A DNA stretch of 64,000 bases. Origin: Candidatus Alistipes merdigallinarum (GTDB lineage Bacteria > Bacteroidota > Bacteroidia > Bacteroidales > Rikenellaceae). The notes beneath the pieces were generated by a model. It searched no databases and was not told the origin of the DNA. It saw nothing but the letters and a program-made list of their open reading frames with translations. Positions 4,991 through 34,121 of this stretch are shown one piece after another. The translations under genes were made by a program, and so were the position numbers. The stretch lies in assembly GCA_019119305.1 (NCBI GenBank), contig DWXH01000012.1:47330-111329 (forward strand). Reading direction: 5' to 3'. Each line of letters starts with the position of its first letter. Positions within the stretch are counted from its first letter, which is position 1.

Positions 4991-5048
4991 CTTACGCCAC
5001 GAAGAGAAAAAAAGGTCGATTTGAATAAAAAAATTCTGCAAAATAAAC

Positions 5049-5056
5049 TACCTTTG
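5049..5056 (+). promoter_or_regulatory. -7 box upstream of the + strand cobalamin riboswitch
   Basis: TACCTTTG matches TAnnTTTG exactly and places transcription start near the first aptamer helix. A TTTG occurs at 5020-5023, but 25 bases away, which is longer than usual. Confidence 0.6.
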
Positions 5057-5060
5057 TCGT

Positions 5061-5252
5061 GCAATGGTTTTCGGGAAAATCCCCGAAACAAAAGGGAATG
5101 CCGTGCGAATCGGCAACAGTTACCGCTGCTGTATGTTTCACCCTCCGGAATCCGCAAACGCGAACCGAAGGAAAATCGTTTTAAATTTTTGCCACTGACC
5201 ACATCGTTCGGGAAGGCTTTAAAACGGAAACAAGTCAGAAGACCTGCCTTGC
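5061..5252 (+). ncRNA. Cobalamin riboswitch (+ strand)
   Basis: The conserved cobalamin aptamer elements appear in order: AAAGGGAATGCCGTGCGAAT then CGGCAACAGTTACCGCTGCTGT (5091-5131), GCCACTG (5191-5197), GGGAAGGC (5210-5217) and GTCAGAAGACCTGCC (5234-5248). GCAA at 5061 can pair with TTGC at 5249 to close the aptamer. About 130 bases of expression platform follow before the BtuG-like gene. Binding of adenosyl- or other cobalamin should reduce expression of the downstream uptake genes. Confidence 0.95.
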
Positions 5253-5381
5253 AACATGGATTTTCGGCCTGCGGTCTTATGGGCGGAACCTCCGACGGAT
5301 GGTTATCCTTCGTGAATCTTCAATCTGTCTCAGCACCTCCTCCATCAACTTCGCCGGCTACAACGTTTTAATCGGAATCGA

Positions 5382-12194: not shown

Positions 12195-12334
12195 CTTCAC
12201 TGTAAAATTTAAAAATAGGTTAATAAAATTTTCCAAACGATTTTACAGCGAACGATGTGTGAGCAGAGAGCTCCAATGACGAAGAACTCGCCATAACATT
12301 ACCGACCCATACACCGCAGGCAAGTAAAATCCAT

Positions 12335-12512
12335 TTCAAGGCAGGTCTTCTGACTCGTTCCTGTTTTAAAGCCTTCCCAACATCCGGCAACGTCAGTGGC
12401 ACAAATTTTAAAACTTTTTGACCCGCAGACACATCTGCGAGCAGGAACATACAGCAGCGGTAACTGTTGCCGATTCGCACGGCATTCCCTTTTCATCTTT
12501 ACTACGAGAACC
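12335..12512 (-). ncRNA. Cobalamin riboswitch (- strand)
   Basis: Read on the - strand, the aptamer shows AAAGGGAATGCCGTGCGAAT with CGGCAACAGTTACCGCTGCT (12495 down to about 12450), then GCCACTG, GGGAAGGC and GAGTCAGAAGACCTGCC (about 12350-12335). It is close in sequence to the + strand copy at 5061-5252, differing mainly in the variable P6-P7 loop region. About 140 bases separate it from the propeller gene start at 12194. High B12 should repress the propeller and LRR genes. Confidence 0.95.
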
Positions 12513-12520
12513 TTGTCCGG

Positions 12521-12528
12521 CAAAAGTA
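12521..12528 (-). promoter_or_regulatory. -7 box upstream of the - strand cobalamin riboswitch
   Basis: On the - strand this reads TACTTTTG, an exact TAnnTTTG match, placing transcription start near 12515, at the 5' edge of the aptamer. No clear TTTG box is seen at the usual distance. Confidence 0.55.
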
Positions 12529-12628
12529 ATATTTTTTACCGGAAAACCGACAGCCCTCGAAAAATAAATTGTTTTTCCCATCAAAAATCCGCTGCAGTTC
12601 TGTCTCCCATTGCTAAAATCATTTTCCT

Positions 12629-32647: not shown

Positions 32648-33568
32648 TCAATCGTTCTGTTTCGGATGCTCCATCAGATCCTTCACCACCTCGGGAGATG
32701 TGTGATCAGAACCCGTCAGTACATACACCAGCATGCCGGCATCTGACACATCGAAATCCCGGCCTCCATTTTTCGAGCACTCCTCCATCCGCGAGTAGAG
32801 CCACTCCCAACTCCCCTCTTTGTAAACCGGGAGATGGCGCGCCTCCGAAGTCCGAAGCCACGAAAACCGATCCCTGTTCGTATTCAGCCCGTCGAACAGC
32901 CGTTTACCCGATGCATCCCGGTCCCGGCCGTTCTGATCGTGGATATGGATACAATTCAACCCTCCGCCTTTCGCCGAAGCAAACGTCTCGACAATCTCCT
33001 CATAGGACCAGCCATCGTGTGCACTTTTATATTTTTCGCGATCTTTTCCGCTGTGGATGTTGTTCCAACGGCCGTGTGTAATCAGAGTTACATACTTCCG
33101 TTTCGACGGTTTTGCCCGTGCGATCCCTTCGCCCAAAACCTGCATTGGGCCGGCTGCGATCAGAATCAGCAGATTGCGACGGGACGACCGGTCGATCTCA
33201 CGGGCTACGGCCTCGTATGCCCGCTCCGGATCGTCATACGCGCAGATAAATTCGGCATCGGGAAAACCGAAGCGATCGCGACCTCCCTCGATGCTCTCGA
33301 TCATCTCGGCCCTTCCGTCATACCCTTTGCGGTCGGAACGCCCCTCCCAAATATGATCGCAATAGACATAAACGGGCAGCGCCTCCTGCATCCCTTGTGA
33401 AGCGAGCAAAGCCAACATCAGCGCTGAAGCCCCCCAGTCGTCTTCATCGTGGGCATTGCCATCCGAACTGATCACGATCCGGCCTCGTCCGTTCCACAAC
33501 GGATCGGCTGCATACACGCCGCTGGCCAACAGCAACGTCATTACCAATACGACACAAGCCCTTTTCAT
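32648..33568 (-). CDS. Secreted nucleoside-hydrolase-like protein
   Basis: The 306-residue product has a signal peptide ending VYAA. It opens with GRIVISSDGNAHDEDDWGASALMLALL, resembling the Asp-rich N-terminal metal site of nucleoside-hydrolase-fold proteins such as DUF1593. Later blocks LLILIAAGPMQVLGE and HIHDQNGRD fit the same fold. Exported members occur in polysaccharide-utilisation loci with unclear substrates. It is probably first gene of the - strand cluster, since about 900 bases without ordinary genes lie upstream. The call is by motif and fold resemblance, not a recognised family, so function stays open. Confidence 0.6.
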   Translation of the reverse strand: MKRACVVLVMTLLLASGVYAADPLWNGRGRIVISSDGNAHDEDDWGASALMLALLASQGMQEALPVYVYCDHIWEGRSDRKGYDGRAEMIESIEGGRDRFGFPDAEFICAYDDPERAYEAVAREIDRSSRRNLLILIAAGPMQVLGEGIARAKPSKRKYVTLITHGRWNNIHSGKDREKYKSAHDGWSYEEIVETFASAKGGGLNCIHIHDQNGRDRDASGKRLFDGLNTNRDRFSWLRTSEARHLPVYKEGSWEWLYSRMEECSKNGGRDFDVSDAGMLVYVLTGSDHTSPEVVKDLMEHPKQND

Positions 33569-33878: not shown

Positions 33879-34084
33879 AAAAAAGAAAGCGCGTGAGCCA
33901 TTGTTATCTATTCCGACAGGCTCTGGTAAACCGCGATTGATAAATAAGCAACAGCCCCGCGCTACAAGATGTAGCGTGAGGTAAACGGCCTATTCCCAAC
34001 CTAAAATTTACCAGATTTCGTCGGAGGAATAAGGCTCGAACACTTTCGTGTTCTATCCAATTGTATCCGCACACCCGCAGGCAT
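33879..34084 (-). ncRNA. Candidate 6S-like rod-shaped small RNA
   Basis: The two halves of this region are complementary, forming an interrupted rod: GAGCC (33895-33899) with GGCTC (34033-34037), TATTCC (33909-33914) with GGAATA (34026-34031), GAC (33915) with GTC (34020), and TCTGGTAAA (33922-33930) with TTTACCAGA (34007-34015). Inside is a perfect hairpin CGCTAC-AAGAT-GTAGCG (33960-33976). A consensus promoter lies upstream on the - strand, and the last stem is followed by TTTCTTTTTT, giving an RNA of about 206 bases. Length and shape resemble 6S RNA, which binds RNA polymerase, but conserved-sequence proof is lacking. tmRNA, SRP RNA and RNase P signatures were not found. Confidence 0.6.
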
Positions 34085-34090
34085 GCACAA

Positions 34091-34121
34091 CAAATTTACG
34101 CACATTTATTGAATATGCAAA
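34091..34121 (-). promoter_or_regulatory. Promoter of the candidate 6S-like RNA
   Basis: On the - strand TTTG (34121-34118), 19 bases, then TAAATTTG (34098-34091): both boxes exact and ideally spaced. No start codon follows until 33568, consistent with a non-coding transcript. Confidence 0.8.

Follow-up and report, generated by a model that had tools for sequence, protein, structure and literature searches.

A multicopy leader RNA of Bacteroidota with strands that covary in two mutually exclusive folds: a likely transcription attenuator

In trp-type attenuators the leader strands compete for one another as 1:2, 2:3 and 3:4, and the 3:4 hairpin precedes a U-run. 6S RNA is a free-standing gene, present once or twice per genome, whose product has a large central bubble and mimics an open promoter. 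Bacteroidota are among the main human gut bacteria, and to our knowledge few RNA switches specific to them have been described. The candidate HMP2_4205 (Fremin and Bhatt 2021, PMC8040213) is a palindromic element of 132 bp with a predicted terminator, found near TPR genes, and similar palindromic candidates in that study are mostly from Bacteroidetes. A Bacteroides mRNA leader through which sugars silence a regulator has been reported (PMC10294740). In Flavobacterium psychrophilum, Rfp11, Rfp13, Rfp15 and Rfp18 are conserved small RNAs with strong predicted structure, and deletion of Rfp18 reportedly lowers two protease mRNAs (PMC9723704).

The window examined here is the whole stretch of 64,000 nucleotides. 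Positions 33879 to 34121 had been read in an earlier note as a candidate 6S-like RNA on the minus strand, with its own promoter, two complementary halves forming a rod, an inner hairpin and a U-run. The parts were found as described. The -33 element TTTG of a promoter, called P2 below, lies at 34118-34121 (-) and is followed after 19 nt by the -7 element TAAATTTG at 34091-34098 (-); the U-run TTTCTTTTTT is at 33879-33888 (-) and the inner hairpin at 33958-33978 (-). The RNA of 215 nt from 34090 to 33876 (-) has a folding energy of -86.2 kcal/mol, compared with a mean of -57.7 (sd 4.4) for its shuffled versions (z = -6.42; none of 200 shuffles was its equal), in keeping with the claim of a structured minus-strand RNA. 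The opposite strand (-65.0, z = -4.60) is weaker, although it also beats all 200 of its own shuffles. A terminator scanner, which takes loops of 3-8 nt only, reported no terminator at the locus.

Rfam gave no identity for this RNA. At E values up to 10, the intergenic stretch contains two weak matches that adjoin the window RNA and none that overlaps it. At gathering scores the whole window has only two cobalamin riboswitches and two tRNAs; both riboswitches, at 5047-5265 (+) and 12323-12530 (-), are well over the gathering score. None of the 6S, 6S-Flavo and Bacteroidales-1 models, which the earlier note had proposed for comparison, matches the window RNA. A search of the entire genome with Bacteroidales-1 (RF01693) at E up to 0.001 gave no match, and the same search did find this RNA in the control, Bacteroides ihuae. 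Nine distant copies, described below, gave no family match beyond two weak ones. The RNA belongs to a leader family that is matched by no Rfam 15 model, and no description of such a leader was found in a search of the open-licence literature.

BLASTN with the window RNA gave matches in 17 of 61 genomes including its own, where there is a second copy; several genomes have two or three matches and one of the 17 (G059) has only a 22-nt match. A pattern scan based on the conserved strands found 103 stretches in the genome collection. A phage RNA was also considered and set aside, the exact pattern giving no stretch in viral contigs. Among the 80 titles listed are Alistipes, Rikenella, Bacteroides faecis, B. 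fragilis, Dysgonomonas, Barnesiella, Prevotella, Parabacteroides, Taibaiella and others, and all 80 are, we take it, Bacteroidota. Two covariance models were used, R1 built from 49 sequences and R2 from 94, the alignment behind R2 (A4) having been fitted onto the R1 structure. The window copy, itself one of the 49 sequences used to build R1, matches all 176 positions of that model with 126.8 bits, and this leader RNA core occupies 33884-34050 (-) of the window (G000:C31:81213-81379). At E up to 1e-4, and with the source genome included, R1 finds three copies in that genome, one or more matches in 80 of 101 Rikenellaceae genomes with up to 15 in a single genome, and matches in 17 of 296 genomes sampled across the phylum. 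R2 extends these counts to 68 of 198 genomes of the order, with up to 14 matches per genome, and to 31 of 296 genomes of the phylum. Searches of more than 40 genomes were run with stricter filters, by which weak matches are lost.

The position of the copies relative to genes was determined at 112 loci, ie the 103 from the pattern scan and nine from BLASTN; L008 and L029 are the same place, and two pairs among the 103 share an identical RNA. At 100 of the 112, a co-directional ORF (ATG start, at least 55 aa) lies within +85 to +420 of the anchor, and some of the other 12 are cut by the end of the locus. The ATG is at +90 to +159 in 82 of the 112. On the opposite side, at 135 to 420 nt, an ORF was found at 36 of 112 loci and these were scattered. 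A further 20 copies were taken from four genomes. In 16 of them an ORF of 50 aa or longer lies within 400 nt, and 14 of these ORFs begin 27-71 nt past the end of the model. Judged from the sequences, the family is mostly a 5' leader of co-directional genes.

The genes themselves have little in common. The first ORFs analysed (set A1, 81 of the 100) carry 43 Pfam families over the 81 proteins, and no family occurs in more than five. The commonest are BspA-type leucine-rich repeats and BACON, with five each, and the rest include OmpA, glycosyltransferase, GIY-YIG, histidine kinase, sigma factor and fimbrillin. Signal-like starts were found by a crude script in 42 of 77 first ORFs, compared with 129 of 400 other ORFs. 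A lipoprotein theme, sought with the same script, proved modest only (lipobox in 17 of 77 versus 45 of 400). Anti-phage defence was likewise discarded as a theme of the cargo: six PADLOC models match among the 81 first ORFs, namely three ZorB (MotB) models with one or two proteins each, and PD-T4-3 (E = 1.2e-52), TPR and PDC-M43B with one each.

Nearly identical leaders can have different genes behind them. For 54 pairs of leaders that share 80% identity or more over 190 nt or more, similarity is lacking in the downstream DNA in 28 (for example L070/L107, L060/L087 and L028/L101), in the upstream DNA in 35, and on both sides in 23. Genes that read as transposase-like lie within about 1.3 kb upstream at 10 of 103 loci, and tyrosine-integrase-like genes are near 11 of 103, ten of them upstream; both names are the authors' reading of the sequences, made with no model run. 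A transposase- or Cas-like guide RNA was considered and rejected, such genes being near subsets of the loci only. The ten transposase-like genes, of IS1595 type by reading, are those of L041, L059, L072, L073, L080, L082, L089 (on the other strand), L099, L100 and L106. A uracil-glycosylase-like protein is downstream in 11 loci, six of which are among these ten. L070, L107, L111 and L128 have similar leaders with integrase-like genes upstream. In L070 and L107 the leaders are 99.6% identical and the upstream DNA 97%, and the cargo is unrelated; the cargo of L111 is beyond the locus. The unrelated cargo of L070 and L107 puts the leader where a conserved element gives way to variable genes. L169 and L170, both in one genome (G092) and both close to contig ends, share an identical 229 nt upstream and an identical RNA of 201 nt, and diverge immediately after it.

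Comparison of the copies gives the order of strands, 5' to 3', as a5, alpha, c5, d5, e5, beta, hairpin I, S, gamma, e3, d3, c3, delta, T and the U-run, mostly followed by an ATG. These strands pair in two ways. In the rod, a5 closes the structure with the end of T, alpha pairs with delta, the c, d and e strands pair with their namesakes, and beta pairs with gamma around hairpin I. In the other, called fold T, alpha pairs with beta, and S-gamma pairs with delta-T to form a hairpin just 5' of the U-run. Rod and fold T share strands, and so each excludes the other. On the minus strand of the window copy, covariation in both folds locates alpha at 34025-34035, beta at 33988-33997, gamma at 33939-33949 and T at 33885-33895, and covariation and sequence locate a5 at 34040-34047. 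The alignment gives d5 (TCTGGTAAA) at 34007-34015, d3 (TTTACCAGA) at 33922-33930, c3 at 33913-33918 and, together with the partner test described below, c5 at 34016-34024; with the sequence it gives hairpin I at 33958-33978. Delta and the start of T (33897-33911) come from the fold T alignment. Strand S (33949-33962) begins within hairpin I in the rod, where its remainder is free in the consensus, and pairs with T in fold T.

Both folds were assessed on the 49 aligned sequences (A3) which, like the 56 of A2, were those judged cleanest among 70 non-redundant copies. For the rod, 84.7% of the alignment cells are paired and 28 of 50 pairs have changed on both sides; shuffles average 19.0 such pairs and none of 500 reaches 28, and slid copies of the structure are at most 50.6% paired. 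For fold T, 89.7% of cells are paired, with at most 54.5% for slid copies, and 15 of 30 pairs have changed on both sides. Here the shuffle mean is 11.8 and the observed number was reached by 19 of 500, ie the excess of changes is modest only. One member (L096) was the source of both structures, which gives them an advantage over their slid versions, and the counts of covariation are inflated by related sequences. The e helix of the rod is weak on this alignment (44.0% of cells paired). At an outer position of alpha:beta the compensatory types UA, CG and AU all occur. RNAalifold on A3 recovers 24 pairs of the rod centre only, and for that reason the folds were tested as named structures. The covarying pairs that the earlier note had asked for in homologous loci are therefore present, and the proposed rod is one of two folds which they support.

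An alignment-free test, in which each strand is paired with its own partner or with those of other copies, was applied to 67 of the 70 copies (65 for upstream:S3); L062, L071 and L120, with motifs missing, were dropped from it and from the folding energies. The z scores were -27.6 for c, -20.2 for beta:gamma (with e), -10.1 for T:downstream, -9.4 for S:T, -8.2 for upstream:S3, -6.7 for alpha:beta, -6.5 for alpha:delta, -5.4 for I:S, -4.6 for a, -4.3 for gamma:delta and -3.9 for d, for which some shuffles equal the true partners. These scores are not fully separate, since the alpha stretch tested includes part of c5 and those for beta and gamma include e. Control pairs gave +1.1 (u:T), -1.0 (u:gamma) and -1.4 (S:downstream).

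The 6S reading, in which a free-standing rod would mimic an open promoter and so bind RNA polymerase, would account for the rod shape, the length of about 170-200 nt, the promoter and the U-run, and a 6S RNA with product RNAs is described for Bacteroides thetaiotaomicron (PMC7366714). The window RNA is an interrupted rod, the feature to be set beside the 6S bubble. No 6S model matches it, however: RF00013 matches nowhere in the genome at E up to 10, and the sole genome match of RF01685 (6S-Flavo) is on another contig, at G000:C11:19339-19476, with 30.5 bits against a gathering score of 85. The DNA of that C11 locus has matches in 24 of 41 genomes, its own included, 22 of them with a single match, and it is a better 6S RNA candidate of the source genome than the window RNA. 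This locus (L025, G000:C11:19293-19523, minus strand) has a terminal stem in its fold, with a run of eight T at its end. Since the window RNA has no Rfam match, belongs to a family that is multicopy and mostly stands before ORFs, and has a second covarying fold that breaks the rod, and since a separate 6S-Flavo-like locus exists, the 6S reading is unsupported, and we regard it as hardly credible. What stands of the earlier interpretation is the structured minus-strand RNA with its Bacteroidota-type promoter, U-run and compensatory changes.

Distant copies bear on the same question. In other orders of the class, R1 matches score 38-72 bits and the layout is kept. Ten of 19 distant copies have no ATG ORF of at least 60 aa within 200 nt, which would favour a 6S-type RNA, and free-standing forms may occur among them; the hairpin end is uncertain in L198 and L199. 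When 13 were read further, the next ORF of at least 90 aa ran in the same direction in 12, ten of these ORFs starting 307-793 nt from the centre of the match. The ten are L182, L187, L189, L190, L191, L192, L194, L195, L198 and L199, from another order, and several of their next ORFs resemble each other, with MNYFSF or MKIFSF starts, and read as outer-membrane-receptor-like.

The fold T hairpin has the appearance of a terminator. Alone, S-gamma:delta-T averages -33.4 kcal/mol over 67 copies, and at least seven T in the 10 nt behind it were found in 53 of 65 copies (fewer in the other 12) compared with 9 of 195 control stretches. The script misplaced the T strand of L003 and L004; these two are in the partner test and the energies and out of the U-run and d' counts. 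In the window copy the predicted terminator hairpin with its U-run spans 33879-33965 (-), also with -33.4 kcal/mol alone. The rod is nevertheless the more stable fold, with family averages of -66.7 versus -53.5 kcal/mol and, in the window copy, -71.4 versus -18.9 plus -33.4 kcal/mol, so that termination would need to be kinetic.

Two further pairings were found outside the folds. P2, as TAnnTTTG, is present in the expected region at 95 of 102 loci and in 2 of 102 control stretches of the same size; the 102, also used for u1, are those of the 112 with at least 560 nt upstream. Upstream of P2 lies a strand u1, mostly GCAACAGCC, that can pair over 10 nt or more, G-U pairs included, with the end of S and the start of gamma. 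It is found at 72 of 102 loci and, in a control stretch further upstream, at 10 of 102, and it covaries, with GCAACACCCC opposite GGGGTGTTGC in L028, GCAACAATCCC opposite GGGATTGTTGC in L046 and GCAACAGTTCC opposite GGAACTGTTGC in L121. A second TAnnTTTG box, P1, lies just 5' of u1 at 31 of 90 loci and at none of 90 controls, and the spacing from P1 to u1 is 5-6 nt in 27 of the 31. If P1 is a promoter, u1 would form the 5' end of its transcript. The other strand, d', is placed behind the U-run and ahead of the ATG; in 25 of 64 copies it is complementary over at least 7 nt to the start of T, compared with 2 of 64 further on; one further copy was left out of this count for its short flank. It can also be seen by eye in the distant copies L181, L184, L186 and L188. 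Both u1 and d' pair with segments that the consensus rod leaves free and fold T occupies, and so both go with the rod and exclude fold T. The inverted repeat made by u1 and S led us to consider a DNA site for recombination, of integron type or other; it was dropped because the covarying pairs include G-U (L112, L116) and the strands nest into RNA folds.

The position of d' also raises the reading that the leader controls translation or mRNA stability, with d' and T doing the work near the start codon and the U-run a mere linker. d' does sit between U-run and ATG and does covary with T, in distant copies by eye, and the U-run is weak in some copies. The T-richness behind the hairpin, however, exceeds what a linker needs, and the hairpin ends at the U-run; we think this reading quite improbable. 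A riboswitch-like leader, in which the d helix and its flanks would bind a metabolite or a protein and the two folds would be the expression platform, fits the two covarying folds and the TCTGGTAAA / TTTACCAGA strands, near-invariant in close copies and changed on both sides only in a few (L023, L163 and the distant copies L183, L185 and L186). It has against it that the downstream genes, spread over so many Pfam families, have no evident common pathway, and that the conserved strands already pair together while nothing marks a pocket. It is rather unlikely, in our judgement, if less so than control of translation.

The family is, we believe, a transcription attenuator, a reading that we hold to be reasonably likely, with strands that covary in two exclusive folds and the window sequence as one copy. 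Three features expected of an attenuator are all found in the family: a 5' leader of a co-directional gene, a hairpin with a U-run, and exclusive covarying pairings. The leader position, the strands, their covariation, the U-run and the promoter boxes come from comparison of the copies; that fold T stops transcription is what we infer from them. The fold T hairpin, directly 5' of the U-run, would stop RNA polymerase and the rod would act as antiterminator, in the pause hairpin, antiterminator and terminator layout of an attenuator. Transcripts from P1 would begin with u1, which would keep them in the read-through fold; those from P2 would be without u1 and mostly terminate, and d' would keep the open state after read-through. 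Promoter choice, ie the presence or absence of u1, is the most economical proposal for how the balance is set; against it, P1 in its strict form is at 31 of 90 loci only and the rod is the more stable fold. The full picture is of a phylum-wide RNA switch in which a choice between tandem promoters decides termination: the first nucleotides of the upstream transcript would themselves serve as the antiterminator strand, transcripts starting with 5'-GCAACAGCC passing and those of the inner promoter stopping. The switch would have come to occupy up to 15 sites in a genome, before unrelated, often mobile, surface and accessory genes. That picture we offer tentatively, as one that may well be wrong in part or whole.

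The window copy retains P2, both folds and the U-run. At the usual place of u1 its longest complement is 6 nt, and u1 is not detectable there; in a wider upstream stretch the best match, of 9 nt and including G-U pairs, is at the control level, at least 9 nt being found in 34 of 102 control loci. Its best d' is 6 nt with one G-U pair, ie nothing convincing. The next gene downstream, at 32648-33568 (-), starts 310 nt from the anchor and encodes a protein of 306 aa which by our reading has a signal-peptide-like start, and for which neither Pfam nor NCBIfam gave a match at E up to 0.001. In G002, a genome of the same genus, the leader (L093) is 91.0% identical over 234 nt and is also followed by a close relative of this gene, 93.5% identical over 262 nt, its distance measured likewise. 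The stretches that flank the leader align locally at 57-58%, far below the leader itself. Since leader and gene are kept while the flanks diverge, the element in the window looks conserved by selection, and the leader may control the 306-aa gene. The copy is atypical and possibly orphaned. With no detectable u1 or d', and with the gene 310 nt from the anchor, it may serve mainly as a terminator for short P2 transcripts. The far ORFs of the distant copies indicate that a longer distance of this kind also occurs elsewhere.

If the attenuator reading is right, unrelated secreted and accessory genes would share a regulon set by an RNA and not by a protein site. The leader, absent from Rfam, is in 80 of 101 sampled genomes of the family; for the order the share is about one third. 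It suggests a route by which newly gained cargo genes could enter host control. An attenuator whose input is the choice of start site would be unusual and directly testable.

Compared with the systems described at the outset, the family shares with Bacteroidales-1 (RF01693) that both are structured RNAs of Bacteroidales; that model has no match in the source genome at E up to 0.001. With 6S RNA (RF00013, RF01685) it shares the rod shape, a similar length and the U-run, and it differs from it in having no model match, in being multicopy and mostly in leader position, and in its two folds. Three likenesses are by description only. HMP2_4205 and its kin are, like the leader family, palindromic and mostly from Bacteroidetes; HMP2_4205 has a predicted terminator, and it may be a fragment of a member. 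The sugar-responsive leader is also a Bacteroides mRNA leader that controls its gene, and the Rfp RNAs are conserved, strongly structured flavobacterial RNAs. Compared with trp-type attenuators, the leader family is larger, has the long-range strands u1 and d', precedes unrelated genes and occurs in many copies per genome, and no leader peptide was noticed in an unsystematic look. The sequence of competing pairings is what the two have in common, alpha:beta coming first in the leader family, then beta:gamma with I:S, and then S-gamma:delta-T.
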